This document shows, piece after piece, positions 1 through 52,647 of a DNA stretch of 64,000 nucleotides (the stretch's first letter is position 1; the number at the start of each line of letters is the position of its first letter). The notes under the pieces were generated by a model, which was not told the DNA's origin, searched no databases, and was given only the letters and a program-made list of their open reading frames with translations. Source of the stretch: a virus; the IMG/VR virus record IMGVR_UViG_3300017917_003565, positions 1 through 64,000 of that record; one strand, given 5' to 3'. The position numbers and the translations under genes are program-made.

Positions 1-389
1 CCACGACGTTTTGCACCTTCAATTGTTCTGGCTGCAAATTGACCACCCTGCACTTGATCTGTGTAGATCATGTAAGGGCCGCCATCGTCCATTGGAGTTA
101 CTTCGGTTCTGCCATACCCAGGCTGACTTTGTACGTGAGCAGTGTATAAAGAAATCATATTTTCTAGTTTACGAATTTCAGCTACAATTTTGGCACGGGC
201 CGGACGATTAAGTCCATCACGACCTAGTTCTTTCTTTAATAAATGAATTTTTCTCAATGCCATTGTGGGATTAAAATCAGCTGGCAATTCTGGGATTACA
301 TCACCAACTTCGGAGCTAATGTCGTCTCCGTAGTTCCAATCTTGTCCAAACCCATATGGTGCTTCCGTTATAAACTCTTTAGATCTCAT
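1..389 (-). CDS. Partial phage protein with capsid-targeting-like N-terminus
   Basis: The gene reads leftward from an ATG at 389 and runs off the window start, so its C-terminus is missing. It begins MRSKEFITEAPYG. This closely resembles the T4 internal-protein capsid-targeting sequence (MKTYQEFIAEA type), and I7-T8-E9 followed by A10 fits the T4 prohead-protease rule (I/L)-x-E. A Shine-Dalgarno AAGGAAAT (393-400) and a TATAAATT late-type box (402-409) support the start. The body contains a run of charged helix (ALRKIHLLKKELGRD). I do not recognise a family; an internal or capsid-associated role is inferred from the tag alone. Confidence 0.75.
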   Translation of the reverse strand, partial: MRSKEFITEAPYGFGQDWNYGDDISSEVGDVIPELPADFNPTMALRKIHLLKKELGRDGLNRPARAKIVAEIRKLENMISLYTAHVQSQPGYGRTEVTPMDDGGPYMIYTDQVQGGQFAARTIEGAKRR

Positions 390-401
390 GTTATTTCCTT
401 A

Positions 402-409
402 AATTTATA
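402..409 (-). promoter_or_regulatory. Late-type promoter box TATAAATT
   Basis: TATAAATT on the minus strand, 12 nt before the start at 389 and followed by a good ribosome-binding site. It resembles the T4 late promoter TATAAATA and overlaps the stop codon of the upstream gene. Confidence 0.5.
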
Positions 410-1501
410 TTACTTATTCTTTTTGCGACCGCTTTTCATATTGGCACACCAGTGATACATCCGGCCTTTTTCACCGCCGTACTTCTTGGCCCGGGCTCGC
501 AAGTCTGTTACTGATCCTTTACATGATGCTCCAGCACGTTTTACACGTCCAGGACGACTTTTGCCCTTGACCTTGCCATCAGCAAAGTTTTCAAACACGT
601 CAGGATCAAAGTCATCTGCTGAAATAAAGTATGAGGTGCCATCTCTGTGCTGTAGTTGCACAGCATCATCTTCAGACTCGACTTGTTGTATACTCCAACC
701 CATGCTGTTTAACACTGATTCAATCTGTGGCTGTTTTTCCGCGGCATTCCACCAACGATTGGCCAAGACAAAAATGGGATCCGGAACATCATCGTTGTCG
801 TCACGTCCAGGACTGGGTGCAAATTCCATAATACCAGTGCCACGACGCAATCTCAAATCGTAGTCTACATCGCTTTCATAACGTTCAATATAATCTTGAT
901 AATAACGTTGTGCATCAGCAGGAGTATCTGCTTCAAATCGATCCACTATCTTTGTGGGCTCGTTGGCACGGTATATTTCATAACCTTTGTTAAGACGTTG
1001 TCTAGCACGAGCCATGCGTTCTAGTCTGCTATCAACTCTCTTACCAGCACGATGTAAATAATCTTGCAATCTCTCATCACTAATTTCGTTTACTTTAGAT
1101 ACAGGCATCCATGCCATGATATAATCACGATTCAACAAGTATTTGGCTGCCCAGGCCCTGTGATTGCCGTCTATGATATAGCGATCTGCATCAATCACGA
1201 TGGGTTTCTTATCTATTAGATACTGGCTGACTTCACCAGCATGACCGGGTTCTATCATCATCACACGTCCGTAAGGGTCGCTCTCGGGCTCCGCGTCATC
1301 GTAGTCTACATCGTCGTATTCTTGATCAGGTATGTTGAGATTCAACAAAGGCACACGCTGTAGTTGCCAACGAGGATGAGCCATCACAGCCGCGTGCATT
1401 TTTTCTCCAGGTTGAAAAGGCTCGTGATGAGTCTTATTGATATAAGCCAAGACTTGTTGGGCTGTGGCTTGTTGTTCTTGTACGAATTCTCTAGCTCGCA
1501 T
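410..1501 (-). CDS. ParB-like fold protein with capsid-targeting-like N-terminus and Cys/His basic tail
   Basis: The 363-residue protein starts MRAREFVQEQQ, a capsid-targeting-like tag (V7-Q8-E9). Around residues 95-125 the segment PIVIDADRYIIDGNHRAWAA has the ParB/sulfiredoxin-fold pattern (IVID, then IDGNHR). The C-terminus carries a basic tail, RAGASCKGS then MYHWCANMKSGRKKNK, with Cys and His spaced like a zinc knuckle; the gene at 7245-8090 has a similar tail. A middle acidic segment (DDVDYDDAEPESD) is probably flexible. It is the last complete gene of its run and overlaps the upstream 63-residue gene by 11 bp. A packaged or virion-associated nucleic-acid-binding role is inferred. Confidence 0.85.
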   Translation of the reverse strand: MRAREFVQEQQATAQQVLAYINKTHHEPFQPGEKMHAAVMAHPRWQLQRVPLLNLNIPDQEYDDVDYDDAEPESDPYGRVMMIEPGHAGEVSQYLIDKKPIVIDADRYIIDGNHRAWAAKYLLNRDYIMAWMPVSKVNEISDERLQDYLHRAGKRVDSRLERMARARQRLNKGYEIYRANEPTKIVDRFEADTPADAQRYYQDYIERYESDVDYDLRLRRGTGIMEFAPSPGRDDNDDVPDPIFVLANRWWNAAEKQPQIESVLNSMGWSIQQVESEDDAVQLQHRDGTSYFISADDFDPDVFENFADGKVKGKSRPGRVKRAGASCKGSVTDLRARAKKYGGEKGRMYHWCANMKSGRKKNK

Positions 1502-1682
1502 GATTGATTTTTTTGGTATAAGTCATAGAATATTCAGCCAATTTTAGTTTTAATTCTGTATCCAAATCCTGTAGAGATGGATCATCTCTACGCAGAACTC
1601 CAGATGGGCGTGCTACAGCGCCTCGCTTGGAAATTACAGCTACTACAGGAGAAATAGGATTGACTGTCATCTCAAGTTTCAC
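1491..1682 (-). CDS. Small phage protein, unknown function
   Basis: 63 residues starting MKLEMTVNPISPVVAVISKR. It fills the gap between the 1534-residue gene (stop at 1687) and the ParB-like gene, overlapping the latter by 11 bp. The N-terminal half is hydrophobic (PISPVVAVISKRGAVARP) and the second half charged and helical. No family recognised. Tight packing on the same strand is the main evidence that it is real. Confidence 0.55.
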   Translation of the reverse strand: MKLEMTVNPISPVVAVISKRGAVARPSGVLRRDDPSLQDLDTELKLKLAEYSMTYTKKINHAS

Positions 1683-1686
1683 ATGA

Positions 1687-4600
1687 TTATGTCATCTCTG
1701 GTACTACATTGAACGGACCTTGATTCTCTAGTCTATCTCCTTGACTGATCAGCCAGGTCTGTGCTGTGCGGTTGGCATCGCTTTGGTTGTTGCCTACACC
1801 GCTGAATCTATAAACTTCTTCGCCGGATCGATCCAACACACGCCAGGCACCTGTGAATTCTCCAGATGATTGTGCGGCACGCTGTCTTGCCAGATCCATT
1901 GTGGATCCGGGTATGGGTTCACCGCTGGACTGTGCTCGCTGGCGCCATGGAGGTGGTTCTTGTGGATTGGCTTCGATGCTGATCACATCACGACCTTGTG
2001 CTTGTAGGGCCGAGCGTATACGATCCATGGCCGCATTGGCGTTCTCAGCATCTATGTTTAGGCTGTCTTCTACTTCTTGTCCATTTCTGCGTTCGCGCCA
2101 GCGAACTTTGTAATGCCCGGTATCACGAACAGCACCTGCTGGCTGGGGCTCTCCTACACGGGCCCGTATCTGTGCCCGATCTTGTTCATTGTCGGCTTGC
2201 TGGTTGACCCAGTCTTCAATCTCTCTGTCAGTGGCCGGACGGATGTTTTCCACATAACTGCGATTGCGGGCGAAGAAATCATCTTGTTTTTCTGCCTGGG
2301 CCTTGGCTTCGGCTTTGTCTCGGGCCTGTACCAAGGTGCCTTTGCCCCCAAACTCCACTGCCCACCATATGGATCGTTGTTTGAGACGCTGGGCCACCTG
2401 TGCTCGCTGGCTGAGTTTCTTTTCGGGTTCGGGAGTCTCGTCGGGTCTACGGAACACTTGCCAATCATCGGACAGTCGATCTCCGTATTCTGCTTGGACT
2501 TTTTCGTTGGCGCTATCAATGTCCTTGGCTCTCACTGTGAGTATGATGTCACCGTAGGAATCTTTGACATCAAACCATGGATGTTTTATACGAACATCCA
2601 GACTGTTCCAGCGGGGGTCATCTTTGTATTTCTTTTTGTAAATATCGTTGGCGTCGTCGTAGTCTGTGGCATAGAACGTGTCAATCACACCATCGGGGCT
2701 CTTGGACTTGTTCATGTCGTAGACTTCGTATTCTATTTTACCAGTGCTGGGTATTTCTTTGCGTAGCACAGCATCGGCCCACTGTTTCTTGAGTTGTTCG
2801 GGAGAGATTGTGCCCGCCGCATATTCCGAGAACAGTTTCAAAGCATCATCCTGTGCGCCTGGACTGATCAACTTGTACAGCTTCTTGGCATACTCTCGGC
2901 GTTCCAGGGCTGGACTACCGGCGATCTGCATGGCACGTGCGAAACGCAACATGGTATTTTTGATATCATCATATTCGCCGCGACTTTCCATGCTCAAATA
3001 ATCACCACCGGGGCTTCGGAACTCGATGTAGCCATCCTTGATGTGTGCTGATGTGTACTTTGAATTCCCCACGCCTTGTTGAACATAACGAGACGCTAAC
3101 TCAATGAGATTCTTTTGCACCAACTCTAGCGCACCCATAGGGTCCAGCTTGGCTTCTGTGAGTTCACCTCGATTTCGAGCACCGGCTATGTTTTGGCGTA
3201 GTTTCTGCATGGCCGAGGCAGCATAGGTATTTGAAGCGCGACCGAACTTGTCCAGGATGTATTCGTCGCCCATGAACAGCACCAATTTGACGTAGTCAAC
3301 GTCACCGCCTACATAAGGGATGGATATGCCCATGTGTAGTCCGGTAGAATTATTGGTGTAGGCATCGGCTTCATCGTTGCCCCAGTCTATGACTGCTTTG
3401 AGTTTTTCCAGGGCCTGGGGCAATGGCATGGGTGGCGACACGATCTCTAGACCCATATCGTCATCATCATCGGGGTCCAAACTACCATCTGGTTCTATGA
3501 TCCAACGATCGTCTTTGCGAACGGTTGAGTGATAACCCGACCCCACTTTGACATCCATGCCCACTACGTCATGCAAACTCTCAGCAATACTATCCCAGTC
3601 TCTGCTACCACCGCCCGATGAACCACCGGTCCAGTAAGGCCAGTCCAGGCTGAAACTGTTGCCAATCTCGCTCATGTAACCATAACGATCACGCAGGAAA
3701 TCGCTTTCGTCATAGTCGCCACTGTCCGCCATCATGTCAGAGAAGTATTCTCGGGCCGAATCATAGTATTCGCCTTGGCTTTCAAATTCGCTGACGATTT
3801 CACTTTCAAATTCTTCGTAGGCCGCATCGTAGGCTTGTTTATACTTGGCATACAGATCATTTTCTTTCTCATAGGCTTCTTGATCACTGCTCTTAGTAAA
3901 ACGTGGAGCGGCGTTGCCGGCCTGCATGATGTCTTCAACATCGTCGTCGGGAAACAACTCATCTATCTTGTTGACTATACGGTTGTCGCGTTCTTCGTCA
4001 TCGCCCCAGACATTGGTCTCCATGTAGTCACGCACTTGATCTTCTGCATCGTTGTCCCACTGCTCTTGGATCTGCTCATCGCGCCATTCGACAAATTCTT
4101 CCATGAGGCTGTTACGTAGTTCTCTGGCACCGCGTGGACTCAATCCATACCCATAGTCATCATTGGAAAAGAAATCTACCACATGCTCGACGCTGTCGGG
4201 GCGCTCGTCATAGTCGTAATCAGGTTCTTGATCTTCATCATCTTCGTCACGCTTGGTATCACGGAAGATCATTTCTGCTTCAAACCCAGCACGGATGCCC
4301 TGGGCTTCGGGCGATCGTGCCCAGGATTCCAGAGCCGACGGACTCATTTTGACTTCATCTAAAGGTTGTTCTATGCTTTCGGCCACTTGTCGACGATACA
4401 ACTGATACATCTTAAGGAATTCTTGTTCTTGCCGGCTCAACACTCGCCCTAACTGTATTTTGCCCATGATGAACCGGTAATACTGTTCGGCGTCCTGGCT
4501 TTTGTTCACTGGAGCCTGTATAGTTTCATCCACATTATAGGTAGGATCGGTCTTGACGGCTTTGCCAACTCTCCGTTTAGGATCACGAGGATCTATGTCA

Positions 4601-6291
4601 GTGACATCTAGACCGGTGGCTCGGATCTGATCAATGAACTTGTGTTCGGTATCTTCGTCACCAAAACTGATGATACTGCTAGGAGGCCCGGCACCAAAAT
4701 CATGCTTGCCTAGGCCTTTCATATTGCTAATGTGTTGTCCTAGTTTGTACCAGTCATACACATCGCTGACATCCACACGCAGGGTGCCTGCGGGCATGGT
4801 AGGCTTGAATTCAGGACCGGGTGGATTGTCAGGGTTGTAATCTTCTTTGGCTCTATATCGTTTGTATTCTTTGTATAAGTTTTCAAAAAGGCCATTGGCC
4901 TGAGCAATCTGTGGATGGCCTTGACGATCTGTTTTTAATTTTAACTTGTTGGCTTCTTTGCCTACTTGTCCGGGCTTGATGTCCACTGTGAGTGCCATAC
5001 TGAAGCGTGGATCTTTGGCTTGTGCCCGGGTGGGAATATATCCACTTGCGCTTTCTTCCAGATCGTGTGCCTGTCCTGCATCAAAATGTTCGGGATGCAA
5101 TCTGGCCCAGTCACGCATGAGTACTCCGGCTCTGGCATTGGCTTCATTTTCATATTCGCTGCCAGTTTCGCCTGCTGAGGCAGGAACATCTTCACGCTCG
5201 TGTTGGCGCTTGTGTGTGAGTTCATGTGCTACCGTACGCAACACATCCATGATGTGTCGATTGCCCCAGGCCACTTCCAGGATCTTTGAATCATCTTGAT
5301 AACGACCAAAGGTTTTGTGCACCTTAGGCCACTGTGGATCTCTGCGCAACTTCACAGTTGGCATGTTTTGTATTTTGAGTTCTGCCGTACAAAACTTGAT
5401 AAAGTCTTTTAATATCTGTTCGTCGGTGACTCCTGCATCTTCTCTGATGCTTTCGCCGCCATCACCACCTGCATCACCACCTTCGGTGCCTGCTGGATGA
5501 TCTTGCCCAGCATAGGCTGTGCCCGGATACCAATAGGCTCCATAGCCATACTTTACTTTCTTTTTCTTTTTCTTCCGGCGCTCGTCTAGACTTAACAACT
5601 GATCTTTGGCCGCGTTACGTGCATCATATAACTTTTTGATCAGACCTTGTGTGCGCAGGATTTTGAATGCTAGATTCTCTGGCCCAAACTCACCGTGAGC
5701 ATCCAGCCCGGCCTGGCGGTATTCTTTGATCTTGTCAGCCATGGCTGAAATCTTTTCATAATCTTGGCTCGCAACAGCGGCTTCGATCCTGTGTCCTAGA
5801 TCCTCAAACTTTGATCGGACTGAAATATCATCTACGTCTGGTCTGCGTCTCTTTGGAACACTGACCCAGTCATTGTTGATGATGCTGTAGATACCTTGAC
5901 TGACATGTTTTTTATTCGCGTCCTGCACATACAGTTCAACATCATAACCGCCGATTTTTATATCGTGCTGATCATTATAGGCGTACTTTTTGGCATCAAA
6001 CAGTTCGCGATACACTTCGCTGGCATCGGCCTGAGGAAGATCCACCACTAGGTGCAGATCTATATCAGAATGGGGGGTATAGGTGTAAGCGGCGTTGGAA
6101 CCTGAAACAGTGATGTCTTTGACTTCAACGTTGATGCCCAAAAATTCTCGGAAATCGTCGGCAATTTTCAGCAGTTGTTCACGTACCTCGGGACGCATTT
6201 TTTCATCGGCGCCCCAGATACGCGGATTTAATCGATCGTTGAATTTGACAGCATCGCCAAGATCGTAGGAATCTAACTCATGGATGTTCAT
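1687..6291 (-). CDS. Giant multidomain protein: nucleotidyltransferase + HExxH peptidase-like + amidoligase-like regions
   Basis: 1534 residues. Residues 63-82 contain SGSNAAYTYTPHSDIDLHLV, the GS...DxD signature of the polymerase-beta/MNT nucleotidyltransferase fold. Near residues 350-365, VLRTVAHELTHKRQHERED is an HExxH zinc-metallopeptidase motif. From about 665 to 1000, GFEAEMIF, IEPDGSL, GLEIVSPPMP and TNNSTGLHMGISIP follow the ordered motifs of the amidoligase (COOH-NH2 ligase, glutamine-synthetase-like) family. A basic cluster (RRKKKKKKVK) lies near 240. The C-terminal 350 residues are charged, with repeated substrate-like segments (ENANAAMDRI, QAEAKAQAEK). The start is fixed by TAAATA exactly 5 nt before the ATG. 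The fusion resembles modular phage effectors; which substrates it modifies is unknown. Confidence 0.9.
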   Translation of the reverse strand: MNIHELDSYDLGDAVKFNDRLNPRIWGADEKMRPEVREQLLKIADDFREFLGINVEVKDITVSGSNAAYTYTPHSDIDLHLVVDLPQADASEVYRELFDAKKYAYNDQHDIKIGGYDVELYVQDANKKHVSQGIYSIINNDWVSVPKRRRPDVDDISVRSKFEDLGHRIEAAVASQDYEKISAMADKIKEYRQAGLDAHGEFGPENLAFKILRTQGLIKKLYDARNAAKDQLLSLDERRKKKKKKVKYGYGAYWYPGTAYAGQDHPAGTEGGDAGGDGGESIREDAGVTDEQILKDFIKFCTAELKIQNMPTVKLRRDPQWPKVHKTFGRYQDDSKILEVAWGNRHIMDVLRTVAHELTHKRQHEREDVPASAGETGSEYENEANARAGVLMRDWARLHPEHFDAGQAHDLEESASGYIPTRAQAKDPRFSMALTVDIKPGQVGKEANKLKLKTDRQGHPQIAQANGLFENLYKEYKRYRAKEDYNPDNPPGPEFKPTMPAGTLRVDVSDVYDWYKLGQHISNMKGLGKHDFGAGPPSSIISFGDEDTEHKFIDQIRATGLDVTDIDPRDPKRRVGKAVKTDPTYNVDETIQAPVNKSQDAEQYYRFIMGKIQLGRVLSRQEQEFLKMYQLYRRQVAESIEQPLDEVKMSPSALESWARSPEAQGIRAGFEAEMIFRDTKRDEDDEDQEPDYDYDERPDSVEHVVDFFSNDDYGYGLSPRGARELRNSLMEEFVEWRDEQIQEQWDNDAEDQVRDYMETNVWGDDEERDNRIVNKIDELFPDDDVEDIMQAGNAAPRFTKSSDQEAYEKENDLYAKYKQAYDAAYEEFESEIVSEFESQGEYYDSAREYFSDMMADSGDYDESDFLRDRYGYMSEIGNSFSLDWPYWTGGSSGGGSRDWDSIAESLHDVVGMDVKVGSGYHSTVRKDDRWIIEPDGSLDPDDDDDMGLEIVSPPMPLPQALEKLKAVIDWGNDEADAYTNNSTGLHMGISIPYVGGDVDYVKLVLFMGDEYILDKFGRASNTYAASAMQKLRQNIAGARNRGELTEAKLDPMGALELVQKNLIELASRYVQQGVGNSKYTSAHIKDGYIEFRSPGGDYLSMESRGEYDDIKNTMLRFARAMQIAGSPALERREYAKKLYKLISPGAQDDALKLFSEYAAGTISPEQLKKQWADAVLRKEIPSTGKIEYEVYDMNKSKSPDGVIDTFYATDYDDANDIYKKKYKDDPRWNSLDVRIKHPWFDVKDSYGDIILTVRAKDIDSANEKVQAEYGDRLSDDWQVFRRPDETPEPEKKLSQRAQVAQRLKQRSIWWAVEFGGKGTLVQARDKAEAKAQAEKQDDFFARNRSYVENIRPATDREIEDWVNQQADNEQDRAQIRARVGEPQPAGAVRDTGHYKVRWRERRNGQEVEDSLNIDAENANAAMDRIRSALQAQGRDVISIEANPQEPPPWRQRAQSSGEPIPGSTMDLARQRAAQSSGEFTGAWRVLDRSGEEVYRFSGVGNNQSDANRTAQTWLISQGDRLENQGPFNVVPEMT

Positions 6292-6296
6292 GAGTG

Positions 6297-6302
6297 TATT
6301 TA
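6297..6302 (-). promoter_or_regulatory. Late-type TAAATA box, 5 nt before ATG
   Basis: GGTAAATACACTC immediately precedes the ATG at 6291. There is no Shine-Dalgarno and only five bases between box and start, which predicts a leaderless or nearly leaderless transcript. Confidence 0.6.
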
Positions 6303-6309
6303 CCGCTGG

Positions 6310-7197
6310 TTAGGCTTTGGCTTGTTTCTTGCTTTTTTTGCTAGAAGCGATGCTCTTGGCCACCACGGGTTTCTCGGGTTGTGCTGGTGGAGCATTCACT
6401 GGAGCTGCCTGGCCGTTGCTCTGGGCCATGGCATGCAGATCTCGATACAACTGATCCTGTGCGGCGTAATCAAACACATAGGTTCCGGTGTGTTTGAGCA
6501 ACACCCGCTTGTCCACCCAGACTTTGCCGCCTAGATCACGCCAGTTTTCACAGAATGTCCAGTCCTCACTGTAGTAACGATTTTCACGTACAGCAGTGTC
6601 GAAGTAGGTTTTCATGTAGGGGTTGAGTTCTACCGGAAGTCCGATGTCATTGATAAAAGGTTTCACAGCAGGATGTGCATCTAGTTTCTCAAACACATGA
6701 CGTTTGATCAACATAAAACCTGTACCGGTCTTGGAAACTTCTTGCAAGGTGCCGTCGGCACTGGTTTCCGCACCATCAAACCCGTTGACGCACCATTTTA
6801 CTGGCAACGATTTCATTGGATACAGACCACCTATGACATCTTTGTCGGCATTGAGCATGACCAAGAGATGCCAAGGTTCCCAACCAATGTCAGCATCAAT
6901 AAACATCAGGTGCGTTGACTCTTTGTTATGTAGGAACTTGGCTGTGAGTGTGTTTCTGGCGCGGCTGATCAATGATTCATTGGTCATGGTCTCCATGGTC
7001 CAATCAATGTTGAGCTGTCGGCAGGTATTGGCCCATTTGATATAGCTCATGAATGTTGATTCTGTGAGCTGGCCTCCATAACAGGGCATGCAGATATGCA
7101 CACGAGTGGTGCGCAAATAATCTATGTTTACCTGAATCTGTTGTTGACCAGCCGGAGCAGGTGATTGTGTAGTGGGTTGTGCTTGGTTTTCAGCCAT
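6310..7197 (-). CDS. GT-A type glycosyltransferase
   Basis: 295 residues. After a low-complexity Pro/Gln N-terminus, the core has RVHICMPCYGGQ (donor-binding strand), SRARNTLTAKFL, THLMFIDADIGWEP (a DxD-type metal/nucleotide-sugar motif), GGLYPMKSLPV and YYSEDWTFCENWRDLGG (acceptor-side acidic motif). This is the pattern of GT-A phage glycosyltransferases. The C-terminal 50 residues are Ala/Pro/Lys rich, ending SSKKSKKQAKA. TAAATA (7221-7226) and AGAGGAA precede the ATG. It may glycosylate virion protein, host surface or modified DNA; the sequence does not say which. Confidence 0.8.
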   Translation of the reverse strand: MAENQAQPTTQSPAPAGQQQIQVNIDYLRTTRVHICMPCYGGQLTESTFMSYIKWANTCRQLNIDWTMETMTNESLISRARNTLTAKFLHNKESTHLMFIDADIGWEPWHLLVMLNADKDVIGGLYPMKSLPVKWCVNGFDGAETSADGTLQEVSKTGTGFMLIKRHVFEKLDAHPAVKPFINDIGLPVELNPYMKTYFDTAVRENRYYSEDWTFCENWRDLGGKVWVDKRVLLKHTGTYVFDYAAQDQLYRDLHAMAQSNGQAAPVNAPPAQPEKPVVAKSIASSKKSKKQAKA

Positions 7198-7220
7198 GAG
7201 TTCCTCTGTAAAATATCAGA

Positions 7221-7226
7221 TATTTA
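7221..7226 (-). promoter_or_regulatory. Late-type TAAATA box
   Basis: CAGTAAATATC on the minus strand upstream of the glycosyltransferase start at 7197, followed by the ribosome-binding site AGAGGAA. Confidence 0.45.
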
Positions 7227-7244
7227 CTGCTATTGTACAGGGGA

Positions 7245-8090
7245 TTATTTTTTCTTGCGACCAGCGCAGTGGGCTTTTTGACTGAATCCACGCGGCCGGG
7301 AACAATCGATTGAACGCTTGTACTTTTGGCTCCATTTTTCATCAATGTAATCCAGGCTGTTCTTTAATTCAAACAGGCGTTGTTGCAAAGACTGTATGTT
7401 TTCACGTATGCGATTCATGCGTGATTCGCGCATGACGCTCACAGGATTTTCTCCGGCATAAATGCGTTCTTGCCCGTAGATAATGCCTTCTTGAGGTTGG
7501 TTCACACCCAGGCGTTGGTCAAACATGGCCTGTATTTCAGAGTCCGGAGCACCGTAAAGATCAGTTATTATTTGTGTGCGGTCCGCATCATTTCCGGACA
7601 CATAGAGCTTGCGTATCTGACTGGCACTGTTGGCGTCTTGCCCTCGCACACGGAAATTCACCGTGGGAGTTACTGTGATGTATCCATGCTGTGTCATTGG
7701 TTCCATGTTCTTTTCCTCTGGGGGCAAAGGCTGTAGATAAGACGGGGAACCATCGGCTCGAGGCTTGAAGTTGAATCTCTGGGCATCTTTGGCGCTGACA
7801 GCAAATATCAGTACAGTGTTGGCTTTTTCTTCATCTGACAGGCCGTCTGTTATTTCTGTGGCCTGGTAGGGATTTTTGACTTGCTTGATGTGCCCAGCAG
7901 GCACGCCCAGTTTGGTGACCATTTTTACCTTGTCGGCATAGGTAAAAGGACTATTTTCATCGTTTTGCTTGTCGCTGCTGACTATGTAGACCGCATTTTC
8001 ACCAAACTGCTGAGTTAGCCAATCATAGCTGGCTTTGTGACCTAGGTGAAATGGATGGAATCTGCCGGGATATATTACAAGATAGTTCAT
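7245..8090 (-). CDS. Cytidylyltransferase-like nucleotidyltransferase with Cys/His basic tail
   Basis: 281 residues. The N-terminus MNYLVIYPGRFHPFHLGHK holds the HxGH motif of the nicotinamide-nucleotide/pantetheine-phosphate adenylyltransferase superfamily. SASQIRKLYVSG near residue 160 matches the ISSTxIR-type second motif. Such domains transfer a nucleotidyl group from ATP or CTP; the acceptor here is unknown. A coiled region (IRENIQSLQQRLFELKN) leads to a C-terminal tail DCSRPRGFSQKAHCAGRKKK, comparable to the tail of the 410-1501 product. A TAAATA box (8098-8103) lies 7 nt before the ATG and no Shine-Dalgarno is visible. Confidence 0.85.
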   Translation of the reverse strand: MNYLVIYPGRFHPFHLGHKASYDWLTQQFGENAVYIVSSDKQNDENSPFTYADKVKMVTKLGVPAGHIKQVKNPYQATEITDGLSDEEKANTVLIFAVSAKDAQRFNFKPRADGSPSYLQPLPPEEKNMEPMTQHGYITVTPTVNFRVRGQDANSASQIRKLYVSGNDADRTQIITDLYGAPDSEIQAMFDQRLGVNQPQEGIIYGQERIYAGENPVSVMRESRMNRIRENIQSLQQRLFELKNSLDYIDEKWSQKYKRSIDCSRPRGFSQKAHCAGRKKK

Positions 8091-8097
8091 TGTAATA

Positions 8098-8103
8098 TAT
8101 TTA
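8098..8103 (-). promoter_or_regulatory. Late-type TAAATA box, 7 nt before ATG
   Basis: ACATAAATATATTACA directly precedes the ATG at 8090. With the box this close and no Shine-Dalgarno, initiation would occur at or next to the start codon. Confidence 0.5.
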
Positions 8104-8106
8104 TGT

Positions 8107-8547
8107 TTACATGTTCTCCAACATCCACATGTACACAGGTGTAGTGAACTTTATGCTGACAGTACCATTGCACCCCATTTCACCAAAGAATTCGTGCAGA
8201 CTTTTTTCTGTGGAGCCATTAAAATCGTGTTCATACACAGCTTTTTCTGCCACGATGTTGCCCAGCTTGATGCCATCAAATGTTAGGTCTGTAACGGTCA
8301 ACCGTGCATCTTGCACGATATCGCCGATGTCATTGAGTACAGTATGTTCTTCGGTCTTGTTTTTCATGACCAATCTCAGCTCGTGTTCTAGTTCATCGTC
8401 GTCGGAGATTTCTGTGGACATCTGTTGTGGATCACGCACATGCTCGCTGTCAAAAAACTTAGTATCATCTATCCAGGCTTCAAATCCCAGAGGAATAGCA
8501 GGATCTGAGGTACTTACTACGCAGGAAATAATAACAGTGCTGGCCAT
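8107..8547 (-). CDS. Probable virion protein, unknown function
   Basis: 146 residues starting MASTVIISCVVSTSDPAIPLG. Predicted mostly beta, with an acidic middle (EISDDDELEHELR) and a hydrophobic C-terminus (VSIKFTTPVYMWMLENM). It overlaps the upstream gene through TGATG at 8547, so the two are translationally coupled. The same operon holds the 121- and 54-residue genes. Position among virion-type genes suggests a structural role; no family recognised. Confidence 0.65.
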   Translation of the reverse strand: MASTVIISCVVSTSDPAIPLGFEAWIDDTKFFDSEHVRDPQQMSTEISDDDELEHELRLVMKNKTEEHTVLNDIGDIVQDARLTVTDLTFDGIKLGNIVAEKAVYEHDFNGSTEKSLHEFFGEMGCNGTVSIKFTTPVYMWMLENM

Positions 8548-48263: not shown

Positions 48264-49706
48264 TCAAAACTTGGGTCGAGGATTAGGTCGGTAGAGATCC
48301 ATCTTGCCTTCGACCAGTTCGGACAAGATATTCATAACTTTGAAACTGATGGCAGTGTGAGAAGTGATGCCCTGTTGATGCATCTTGCCCAACACATATT
48401 GATGCCAAGCTGGACCATCGGGGTGATGATTTAAGTTGTTGGGGATCTTGAGTATTTCTGGATTGATTTTGTCTGCATGGAACATAACCGAACTCAAATC
48501 ATCGGCTTCGCGTCCATCAAATGTGATGAATTCATCCAGCTCGGTCCCTACATTGATGTGCATGATATCTCGTGCCAGCTTGGCATCCAGTAAATATTCC
48601 CATCCGATGTCACGCCAGTGCAATCTGCGCATGTCTTCAGACGTGTCTTCGTCCATGAGAGGATGATAAAATTTTACCGGCCGCTGATTCAGAGCAAATC
48701 GATTCCTTGCTATATGGTGTTTGTAATCCAAAGGAACTCTGGGTCTTTCTAGACTGATTTCCGGTCTCCACTGCTCGGTAACATGCTCTCGAGCATAGAT
48801 TGGATAGCGAGTCATTTCTTCAAACTCTGCATAGTCATGTCCGGCCAACAATAGGTCATCCATGAACAAAATCCAATGCAACAGGCTTTCATTGCCTAGG
48901 TGTCCGCCAATGTGTGCTCCGTCTGGATATTTGACCAACATGTCAGCTGTGCTGTAGCACTGAACAAACTCGAACTCATAATGGTTAAACAATCGAAGAT
49001 AATCTTCAAGAGTTACAGTTTCTTCAATGATGCCTCCTACTCTACCGGCCATGTGTTTCCATAAAGCTTCACGTGCTTGTATTTTTTCTGGATTCAAAAA
49101 TGCCTGATTAGGACGCCACAATGGTGAAACTTCTGGTAGGTTTCTAAAATACAACAGAGTGGTCTTTTTTTCGTAGCCCAGTTTCATAATAAAACTCAAG
49201 CATACCAAGCTGTCAATGCCGCCGCTGTAGTGCAGATACACTTTGTCATGCATGGCATATATCTTGTGAAACTCCTCGATACAGCGTTTGTACATCCGCT
49301 CAGTGTATTCGTCTAGGCTGAGATTTTTTTCAATCAAACTGACTTCGATGTGTTCATGTGTGACTAAGAATCTATAGCTGGCTGTGGGTATAACCCAGTC
49401 TCTAAAAACAGTGCCAGTGCGGTAGTCAAACGACACTATCAGTGGAAAGTTGGCTGCGCTGAAATACATGCATCTTTCAATGCGCTCGTTCTTTAACTTG
49501 CGGAAATCGTTGGTGAGATACAGATCATCTCCATCTACTCGAGCAAAAATCTTGTCACCACGTGTCAGATCATAGTTCTGGTACAGACCAGGTGGAACAT
49601 TGGCTGCATTACGATATTTTTGCAGTTTGAGTGCTTGGTGCCGCATGGGTTTTGGCGGCCGACATTTAGGCTTCCATTGGTAGCTTGGATCGATTAAATC
49701 AGACAC
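48264..49706 (-). CDS. PP-loop ATPase (asparagine-synthetase-like fold)
   Basis: 480 residues with a GTG start (VSDLIDPSYQW). KVYLHYSGGIDSLVCLSFIM near residue 160 is the PP-loop SGGxDS motif of ATP pyrophosphatases and asparagine synthetases. The N-terminal 140 residues lack a clear Ntn Cys. Charged C-terminal end (KMDLYRPNPRPKF). Substrate unknown; adenylation of an acid or tRNA/DNA modification are options. TAAATA lies upstream (49734-49739). Confidence 0.8.
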   Translation of the reverse strand: MSDLIDPSYQWKPKCRPPKPMRHQALKLQKYRNAANVPPGLYQNYDLTRGDKIFARVDGDDLYLTNDFRKLKNERIERCMYFSAANFPLIVSFDYRTGTVFRDWVIPTASYRFLVTHEHIEVSLIEKNLSLDEYTERMYKRCIEEFHKIYAMHDKVYLHYSGGIDSLVCLSFIMKLGYEKKTTLLYFRNLPEVSPLWRPNQAFLNPEKIQAREALWKHMAGRVGGIIEETVTLEDYLRLFNHYEFEFVQCYSTADMLVKYPDGAHIGGHLGNESLLHWILFMDDLLLAGHDYAEFEEMTRYPIYAREHVTEQWRPEISLERPRVPLDYKHHIARNRFALNQRPVKFYHPLMDEDTSEDMRRLHWRDIGWEYLLDAKLARDIMHINVGTELDEFITFDGREADDLSSVMFHADKINPEILKIPNNLNHHPDGPAWHQYVLGKMHQQGITSHTAISFKVMNILSELVEGKMDLYRPNPRPKF

Positions 49707-49733
49707 AGTGGGGGATTCTCCGGATTGCGTTGG

Positions 49734-49739
49734 TATTTA
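49734..49739 (-). promoter_or_regulatory. TAAATA box upstream of the PP-loop gene
   Basis: AGTTAAATACCAACG on the minus strand, about 27 nt before the GTG start at 49706. Confidence 0.45.
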
Positions 49740-49764
49740 ACTTTTGTTGCCGCCCGGACAAAAA

Positions 49765-50832
49765 TTACTGTTTGGGTCGGCCAATGTATTCGTGGCTATA
49801 GCACACTCGATGAGCATCACGAGCCGTAGTGGTGCCACCATAGCCGGGCATGGCTCGTACAGTGCCGTCTTTTTTGATGTAACTGGCTGCACGGCTTTTA
49901 CGATTGGTCGAAGTCGGCCGCCATAGAGGTGAATGCTCTCGGTGCTCGCCAAAGCTGGGATGAGCAGTTTTTGAAAAATATCTAAGGCCACGATCCACAT
50001 ATATCTGAGCAATGGCATCACTGAAAGCAGTACCTATTCCCATACCTTGGAACTCAGGTAGCACAACTGTTCTATGACCGCGCCAGTATGAGTGTATGTC
50101 TCTGTTGGTGGAATGTATGGCAGCATGGAAGGCCACAGGTTTGTCGCCAATAAGTCCCACATAGCAATGGACTGATCGACTCATTCTAGTATCTAGATAG
50201 TGATATTTTGAGAAATATCGCCAATAGTCCGGAGTTGTGCTTCGGATGGTGAGTGTGATCTTTGGTCGCCCCAATCGAAGAAGTGACCTCCGATTATCTA
50301 ATACCTGTAGGTCGGTATCATACACCCAGTCTGGATCCAGCCAGTCTATTATGTCTCTGTGACAACTAGCGATATACAACACGCCAGGATTGCGGTCAAA
50401 ATACTTACGAACGCTTAATGCCAAACTTTTGGCAGTATCACGATCAACCACCGATGTAAACTCGTCAATGATCGTGTGTCCTTGATCCAGGCCCATGGCG
50501 ATTTCAAATCTATGAAACTCACCATTGCTCAGAGTACTGGGTTTACGGAACCAAGCAGGTATGGTTCTCAGACCACAAGCAAGTAACAGTTCTTCGCCAC
50601 GTTCAGGTGTACTAAAGTTTTCAATAACTGTTTTATCATAATCAATATCAAAGTCAACATCAAAAGGCTTTGGATTATCTACAGTTCGAAGAATTGTAGT
50701 CTTGCCTGACCCCGAAGTTCCTACGATCAACACAATGCCTTGGGTAGGTAACTTGGGAATGACTATGTTGGGTTCAACATAGTCCTTGATATCATAGCGT
50801 TGTTTGATTTCGTCAAGATAGTTGCCAGGCAT
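49765..50832 (-). CDS. Fusion of ABC-type ATPase and GNAT acetyltransferase
   Basis: 355 residues. Residues 1-185: Walker A LIVGTSGSGKTTILR, signature STLSNGEFHR, Walker B HTIIDEFTSVVDRD and switch His in IASCHRDII. Residues 200-355: VVLPEFQGMGIGTAFSDAIA is the GNAT acetyl-CoA loop (QxxGxG/A). This combination matches the ABC-ATPase fused to a predicted acetyltransferase family (COG2401 type). Its substrate is unknown. It overlaps the D12 methylase by 20 bp, so it belongs to that early operon. Confidence 0.88.
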   Translation of the reverse strand: MPGNYLDEIKQRYDIKDYVEPNIVIPKLPTQGIVLIVGTSGSGKTTILRTVDNPKPFDVDFDIDYDKTVIENFSTPERGEELLLACGLRTIPAWFRKPSTLSNGEFHRFEIAMGLDQGHTIIDEFTSVVDRDTAKSLALSVRKYFDRNPGVLYIASCHRDIIDWLDPDWVYDTDLQVLDNRRSLLRLGRPKITLTIRSTTPDYWRYFSKYHYLDTRMSRSVHCYVGLIGDKPVAFHAAIHSTNRDIHSYWRGHRTVVLPEFQGMGIGTAFSDAIAQIYVDRGLRYFSKTAHPSFGEHREHSPLWRPTSTNRKSRAASYIKKDGTVRAMPGYGGTTTARDAHRVCYSHEYIGRPKQ

Positions 50833-51766
50833 CCGAATATTCCATTATGCTGTCAAAGGTGTTTTTGGGAGTGGGCATGATGCTGGGACTATACAACAAA
50901 ATTTCTTGTGCGGACTTGGCGGTGCGCACTGTTTTATCATCTTTCTCTTCCGTGGCTCTGCGTCCAGCAGTGTACTTGATGTCGTAGTAGTTGATTGATA
51001 AATGCCCTCGGTTGGAGGTATAAAACGTGTCGGTGTCTCCGGCCATGCGATTGCAATACATGACCAGGTGTCCGGCTAAATCTGCTGATTTGCAAAAATC
51101 TATGAGCTTGACATGTGCCGTGTCATCAAACGTGGTACCGTACTGTGTGAAACTGTCTCGATATGGTGGATCAAAAAAGTAAAACGCACGGCCTGGAACT
51201 TGATCCACACAACTTTCCCAGGATCCGCTGTGTATAGTCACTCGTTGCAAGAAAGCATGCCATTCCATGACATTGGCTCGATCATACACTGATCCGCGAT
51301 GATTCAACAGGCCCGATGGGGTACAGAAACGACCTTTGGCTTCTTTGGTGCTTTGCCATATGCCGTTGAATGCTGTTTTCATAAGGAAGTATAAACATGC
51401 GCTCTGGCGAGTGGGCGACCAGCTGGCCCAGTCAGTGATGTATTCTTTGCGTATCTGATAGTAGTAGGCCTTGCGGGCGTTGGCATCCATGGGCAGATAG
51501 GTGTTGCAATAGGCATCACATTCTTGTAGGAACACAGCCACATCGTTGCGTATGGCACGATACAGACCCACAATCTCTTCATTGATGTCATTGAGAACAA
51601 AGTTTTGAACCGTGGGATTGTTTTCATATACATGGATCATCATGGCACCGCCGCCAAAGAATGGTTCCACGTAGGTGTCGTATCCGCTGAGAGGTAGCCC
51701 TGGGGCTTCCTGATACTTGGGTATCATTTTGCTCTTGCCGCCGGCCCACATGTACAATGGTTTCAT
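50813..51766 (-). CDS. D12-class (Dam-type) N6-adenine DNA methyltransferase
   Basis: 317 residues. MKPLYMWAGGKSKMIPKYQE is the D12 N-terminus, VEPFFGGGAMMIHVYEN the SAM-binding motif I, and FDPPYRDSFTQYGTTF the catalytic DPPY. It is the alpha-group type of Dam and several restriction methylases. Its ATG overlaps the stop of the EcoRI-like gene (TAATG). A TAAATA sits 4 nt before this ATG, so it may be expressed independently of the endonuclease. Target not determined from sequence. Confidence 0.93.
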   Translation of the reverse strand: MKPLYMWAGGKSKMIPKYQEAPGLPLSGYDTYVEPFFGGGAMMIHVYENNPTVQNFVLNDINEEIVGLYRAIRNDVAVFLQECDAYCNTYLPMDANARKAYYYQIRKEYITDWASWSPTRQSACLYFLMKTAFNGIWQSTKEAKGRFCTPSGLLNHRGSVYDRANVMEWHAFLQRVTIHSGSWESCVDQVPGRAFYFFDPPYRDSFTQYGTTFDDTAHVKLIDFCKSADLAGHLVMYCNRMAGDTDTFYTSNRGHLSINYYDIKYTAGRRATEEKDDKTVRTAKSAQEILLYSPSIMPTPKNTFDSIMEYSDAWQLS

Positions 51767-52647
51767 TAGGTATTTAATCTAGGGTTTACTGTGAGAATAA
51801 AATTGCTTTCATAGGCCTCGGCTATGTCTTTGGTAGAGTAGGCATTGGCCAACATGTCAAGAGCTAGATCCTTGGCTTCTGGCTTGTCCTCTCTACTGAC
51901 TCGCACCCAGGCCTGTGCCAATGGATCACGCTTGTTTTGCAAGATTTCCATGAATTGATCATCGATGCTGTTGAGCTTTTGTTTGACCAGAATATCTGCC
52001 ATGATCTGCTCAGGAGTGAGAGTTTCTTCAAACAGTGACAAGAAATGATTGGTGCGAACCTTGCTGTCAAGATAGGGCTTGATATCATTGAATTTGAGAT
52101 CGTCTAGTTTCAGTGTGGACCTCATGATTTCAAAGATTTGTTCTTGACTGAATCCGTCGGGTGCATAATGCCATTTGACATTTGAGCCATGGATGATTTC
52201 CATGTTGGTACCATGTCTGTGCAACACTTCTCCTTGGGCCGCACCAGCACCGGTGGCAAAGGTCACATATTCGCAATCAGGGTTGATCGCGGTACAAATG
52301 TCATGATTGGTGCCCCAGCGTTCAATAGCATTGCCACCGGTGCCTTGATGCTTGGCTTCAAACACACATTTGAGTCGACGGTTTTTCACTGTTCTATCAC
52401 CATCAAACCACATGCCGCCGTCGGGCACACAGCCTAACGTGATGCCCATGGACACCAGTTCTGGCAATCCAGCACGATCTCTCACGCTTTCGCTGATACG
52501 GTCACTGGTGAGATTCCTATGACCTTGTTCATAATGATATCGTTTTTGGGCCAAGGCAATGGCCTGCGAAACCACTCGGACATCGCCGTCGAGTTTTTTG
52601 GATTCTGCGCTGCCTGCTTCGGTACCTTTTTGTATGCCACCTGCCAT
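51766..52647 (-). CDS. EcoRI-like type II restriction endonuclease
   Basis: 293 residues (EcoRI about 277). GCVPDGGMWFDG (P75, D76) and CVFEAKHQGTGG (E97, K99) are the PD...ExK active site, with the same PDGG and EAKHQG words as EcoRI. GNAIERWG (residues 105-112) copies the EcoRI recognition segment GNAIERSHK whose Asn and Arg contact bases. MFEIM-type IFEIMRSTLKL also recurs. It has its own early promoter (52674-52702). The gene precedes its presumptive methylase. Specificity for GAATTC is predicted from the motif only. Confidence 0.82.
   Translation of the reverse strand: MAGGIQKGTEAGSAESKKLDGDVRVVSQAIALAQKRYHYEQGHRNLTSDRISESVRDRAGLPELVSMGITLGCVPDGGMWFDGDRTVKNRRLKCVFEAKHQGTGGNAIERWGTNHDICTAINPDCEYVTFATGAGAAQGEVLHRHGTNMEIIHGSNVKWHYAPDGFSQEQIFEIMRSTLKLDDLKFNDIKPYLDSKVRTNHFLSLFEETLTPEQIMADILVKQKLNSIDDQFMEILQNKRDPLAQAWVRVSREDKPEAKDLALDMLANAYSTKDIAEAYESNFILTVNPRLNT
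51771..51776 (-). promoter_or_regulatory. TAAATA 4 nt before the D12 methylase start
   Basis: ATTAAATACCT directly precedes the ATG at 51766; the box is in the last codons of the endonuclease gene, so coincidence is possible. Confidence 0.35.

Follow-up and report, generated by a model that had tools for sequence, protein, structure and literature searches.

Does a virus that carries an EcoRI-like endonuclease gene beside an adenine methylase gene encode a restriction-modification (R-M) pair, and, if so, which site would that pair recognize? The locus lies in a 64,000-nucleotide stretch (positions 1 to 64,000, hereafter the window) of the IMG/VR virus contig IMGVR_UViG_3300017917_003565, the full record of which has 112,191 bases. 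On the minus strand, an open reading frame at 51766..52647 encodes a 293-aa candidate EcoRI-like restriction endonuclease (R). It is followed at 50813..51766, also on the minus strand, by the gene for a 317-aa D12-class adenine methylase (M), and the R stop (TAA) and M start (ATG) overlap in TAATG (51764..51768, minus strand). Our best explanation, to which we assign a probability of about 80%, is that R and M form a virus-borne type II R-M pair with AATT as its site. An earlier note on this DNA had suggested a pair directed at GAATTC, with a separate promoter for M; the candidate pair of an EcoRI-related PD-ExK nuclease and a D12 methylase was upheld, and the GAATTC site and the promoter were not.

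Catalysis by EcoRI depends on D91, E111 and K113, and N141, A142 and R145 act at the AATT core of its site (PMC4081073); counterparts of all these residues are present in R. As the earlier note had observed, PDGG (residues 75–78), FEAKHQG (96–102) and GNAIER (105–110) occur in R in the same order as in EcoRI. Across 57 divergent phage homologues, drawn from viral contigs and the cyanophages S-RIM2, S-BM1 and S-CREM2, the catalytic residues P75, D76, E97 and K99 (PD...ExK; segment 52351..52425, minus strand) are invariant, as are G105, N106, A107, E109, R110 and W111 of the recognition segment GNAIERW (52315..52335, minus strand; equivalent to EcoRI G140–R145). A profile of the 57 family sequences retrieved EcoRI chains from the PDB (4e-6) and nothing else below 0.9. 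Given this invariance and the profile match, the EcoRI-like motifs in R are not a product of chance.

The relationship is a distant one. The window R protein searched by itself gave no PDB match and nothing meaningful in Pfam; PF02963 did not match it and matched its relatives weakly (5 of 56, best 0.012), and because the PF02963 cut-off was not reached we place R on a divergent branch, related to EcoRI but outside that family. AlphaFold models were confident (pLDDT 88 for whole R and 92 for the core), and Foldseek searches with two confident R models returned no EcoRI match among the matches listed, where weak PD-ExK matches were mixed with GTPases. The proposed kinship with EcoRI is thus one of sequence. 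R differs from EcoRI, a type IIP enzyme that cuts GAATTC and has RsrI as an isoschizomer, in its predicted site, AATT, in having a D12 methylase as its partner and in lacking the ~20 residues that separate EAKHQG from GNAIER in EcoRI. Alignment and model also delimit a C-terminal helical extension in R (residues 181–293; 51769..52107, minus strand), which in the alignment is common to its nearest relatives, L002 and L004, only.

The window protein belongs to PHROG 2400 (4e-20), a family filed under ‘unknown function’, and family members were found in >100 viral contigs. No relatives were found in one plasmid search or when 84,980 bacterial and archaeal genomes were scanned twice by means of short conserved peptides, a procedure that could miss distant bacterial or archaeal relatives. 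On these sequence comparisons, the family would be an EcoRI branch so far seen in viruses only, with a predicted specificity for AATT. Five pairs of R relatives gave dN/dS values of 0.08–0.14, indicating purifying selection. One member, S-CREM2 gp11 (OR473000; 67% identical to the S-RIM2 copy), was deposited as ‘restriction endonuclease EcoRI’; EcoRI is not mentioned in the S-CREM2 paper (PMC10665884), and for gp11 the term is a record name only.

M is a clear D12 methylase (Pfam PF02086, 4.7e-29; 102 bits against a cut-off of 22), and both this assignment and the TAATG overlap agree with the earlier note. Its nearest solved structures in the PDB are DpnM and Dam. Most R carriers have a single type of D12 methylase (MKPLxxWAGGK) after R, usually in overlapping or abutting frames. 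In S-RIM2, one gene, weakly ParB-like, stands between R and M, and in L040 (1881–3299) R and M are fused in a single 472-aa reading frame. Dam–DNA structures reveal that K9 and R124 of Dam read two G:C pairs and that L122 and P134 touch T. M shares the D12 fold family with Dam and DpnM, which methylate GATC, and differs from them at the positions of K9 and R124, where it has M6 and Q138. All 50 methylases compared from R-carrying loci have Q at the R124 position and P at the P134 position, and I, V or L at that of L122. At the K9 position, 47 have M, I or V, one has T and two have K. The Dam-type genes of S-RIM8 and ACG-2014b keep K and R. Such replacements of K9 and R124 would fit a product of the form A(m6A)TT. 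Lacking K9 and R124, M would not count as a Dam-like GATC methylase.

A TAAATA box had been put forward as a separate promoter for M, but TATAAATA-like words occur at chance level and none lies there within one mismatch, and we discarded a separate late promoter. Downstream of M (48264–50832, minus strand) are genes for a protein combining a P-loop ATPase and a GNAT acetyltransferase (PHROG 11143), which overlaps the end of M, and then for a 480-aa protein with an SGGIDS PP-loop motif; these could be members of a DNA-modification cluster. Upstream of the methylase, L001 (5531–6457), L064 (5791–6810) and L335 (8985–10004) have ParB-like genes, which belong to different families (PHROG 5778 and 2558).

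The site was approached through word counts. The earlier note had seen at least 12 GAATTC sites in the window and concluded that the site is not depleted. The window indeed holds 17, against 17.3 in dinucleotide shuffles, but its coding sequence holds 11 against 21.3 in synonymous-codon shuffles, and the word that is depleted is AATT. It occurs 97 times in the window against 220 expected from trinucleotides, making it the most depleted of the 16 palindromic tetramers, and 143 times in the 112-kb record against 387 expected. In window coding sequence, 74 AATT were counted against 260 in synonymous-codon shuffles (z −16), with all flank classes depleted; these shuffles rule out codon usage as the cause of the avoidance. 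The sole long stretch of the record that shows no avoidance is window 1–8200 (29 AATT against 27.3), which contains 6 of the 17 GAATTC sites and a 1534-aa open reading frame (1687–6291) and was possibly acquired recently. AATT is the site of MluCI, a bacterial enzyme that phage-borne R would resemble in its four-base site and its EcoRI-type relation. MluCI has been listed alongside EcoRI and MunI in a set that may be mosaic (PMC4081073).

AATT avoidance tracks the cassette. A putative clamp-loader gene, identified by eye, links 80 loci to the window virus; their observed/expected AATT was 0.75–1.13, and R was found in 0 of 72 scanned records of such relatives, with 4 of 4 positive controls matched. 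Among GenBank cyanophages, S-RIM2, which has R, stands at 0.23 and nine without R at 0.75–0.95; all ten avoid CCGG, and most avoid GGCC and AGCT. Relatives of the L056 virus, linked through a helicase gene, give 0.00, 0.00 and 0.13 in R-carrying loci and 0.50–1.08 in the others; nearly all avoid CCGG, and no R was found in the 47 records scanned from the R-less relatives. Over the cyanophage-type loci compared, R carriers thus range from 0 to 0.23 and 77 R-less loci from 0.50 to 1.08. When 136 four-mer classes were compared, with no word chosen beforehand, between loci with R, which were hand-picked, and loci without R, AATT came out on top in each of the two lineages (log2 ratio −2.49 and −1.34; runners-up −1.11, for GGCC, and −0.40). 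In all these comparisons, independent gains are few and the statistics ignore kinship. Because AATT is avoided in carriers and not in relatives without R, we predict that R cuts AATT and not GAATTC.

Some genomes with both R and M have little AATT depletion (L016, 0.99; L075, 0.90; and, mildly low, S-CREM2, 0.77, in which M lies two genes from R), as good methylation would allow. L044, which has R and no M in a 62-kb fragment, stands at 0.67. Other words are also avoided in these viruses. CCGG is completely avoided in nearly all cyanophage-type loci (L246–L322 and L193–L201) and AGCT in most, whether R is present or not, a pattern that looks host-driven. TTAA is strongly depleted in S-BM3 (L200; 0.14), as is GATC in S-RIM8 (L195; 0.18), which carries a Dam-type gene; similar depletion may be the mark of other phage-borne systems.

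Two R-carrying contigs have lost the site altogether. G082 (L056, 111,864 bp) contains zero AATT against 339 expected, and G076 (L053, 73,883 bp), 87% identical to it over the aligned part, contains zero against 232; all ten flank classes are empty in both. R has a dN/dS of 0.10 between the two, again indicating purifying selection. We found no D12 or N6_N4 methylase in either contig, both of which may be partial, with a methylase perhaps lying outside, as related phage genomes are near 175 kb. With zero AATT, a methylase would not be needed. We lean towards the view that some marine phages keep the AATT nuclease without its methylase, their protection being that every AATT has been eliminated from their genomes.

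A second candidate nuclease, R2, precedes the Q-type methylase in loci from which the EcoRI-like R is absent (L352:5634–6512, L335:8023–8895, L350:4959–5921, L355:7065–7937 and L353:4700–6133). R2 has ~290–320 aa (477 in L353) and a G.G.GE...E.K pattern, and found no convincing match in Pfam, PHROG, PADLOC or PDB. AATT is low in R2 loci too (0.01 in L352); with the same methylase type present, the depletion marks the cassette and not R alone, and R2 is possibly an alternative, exchangeable AATT nuclease. L347 (3279–5734) holds, in a row, a distant EcoRI-like R, a MKPLFMWAGG start that runs in frame into R2, and then an intact methylase; the MKPLFMWAGG start looks like a methylase remnant, and the locus like a nuclease swap caught in progress. 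R2 cassettes do not explain G082 and G076, since both have R, and neither a methylase nor R2 was found in them.

These data bear on four other readings. If R were a true EcoRI isoschizomer, cutting GAATTC under protection by M, its GNAIER, identical to that of EcoRI, would be accounted for, and so would the finding that, of the flank classes in the window, GAATTC has lost the least, which full methylation of the site could bring about. The loss of AATT is instead general, extending to every flank class in window coding sequence and to all ten in G082 and G076, and R lacks the EcoRI segment that directly precedes GNAIER; we rejected GAATTC specificity on the flank classes and give this reading very little credence. 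A second reading makes host restriction the source of AATT avoidance, with R and M as bystanders. Host-driven avoidance does exist, as CCGG, GGCC and AGCT are avoided by the cyanophages of the group whether or not they have R, but the avoidance of AATT follows R inside groups whose members share CCGG avoidance, and the window lineage, which is unrelated and does not avoid CCGG, shows it again. From the R-less relatives, we judge host restriction as sole cause to be quite unlikely.

The remaining two readings concern what R is for. R might not cut at all and might serve as a DNA-binding or helper subunit of M, with M shielding the phage from host AATT enzymes; the overlapping frames and the L040 fusion would fit a two-part methylase, and the structural matches listed for the models do not include EcoRI. 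Against this stand the catalytic PD, E and K, invariant in 57 sequences, and the persistence of R where no methylase was found and no sites are left, for which a helper role offers no explanation, so that we regard it as highly improbable. Alternatively, enzymes and site could be as proposed, but with the genes retained as a selfish addiction module and not for use against the DNA of hosts or rivals. R-M pairs are capable of selfish behaviour, and cassettes with exchangeable nucleases exist; genomes with zero AATT and no methylase found, however, cannot be addicted to M, yet their R is under purifying selection. We consider an addiction module unlikely.

Under the preferred reading, a virus-borne pair with AATT as its site, R would be a compact relative of EcoRI in which the PD-ExK site is preserved, along with the GNAxER loop that in EcoRI works at the central AATT; lacking the stretch between ExK and GNAxER, it probably ignores the outer base pairs. 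M would be a methylase of the Dam/DpnM type whose specificity has shifted from GATC to A(m6A)TT. Virion DNA would be methylated before entry, so that R made after infection could cut unmethylated AATT in the host chromosome, in plasmids or in rival phages, while M would keep daughter genomes safe. Some relatives would have dropped AATT from the genome altogether, keeping R with no M found. If AATT is the site and the virus is protected by methylation or by having lost its sites, the nuclease likely serves to cut host, plasmid or rival phage DNA after infection. The pair, as predicted from its sequence, probably attacks host or competitor DNA, as a weapon or as a means of scavenging host DNA.

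Virus-encoded R-M has a known precedent in chlorovirus PBCV-1, whose systems, like the one proposed for the window virus, combine a virus-encoded nuclease with an adenine methylase (PMC7248222). PBCV-1 differs in being an algal virus and in its sites, GATC and CATG, and no R-only, site-free genomes appear to be reported with it (PMC7248222). Type II R-M is thus a known kind of system; new here would be an EcoRI branch found so far in viruses only, its predicted AATT site, and contigs that have R and erased sites.

For PHROG 2400, hitherto filed under ‘unknown function’, the analysis provides a likely function and a four-base target, in a family that is present in cultured cyanophages such as S-RIM2. 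As a natural test, the compact R family could also help to show how the outer base pairs of the EcoRI site are read by that enzyme. More broadly, our findings point to bacterial viruses themselves using restriction enzymes, with a genome-scale trace of the activity. If some of these viruses do protect themselves by site loss, a site-free genome would leave R free to attack any other DNA inside the cell, and self would be told from non-self by sequence composition and not by methylation.
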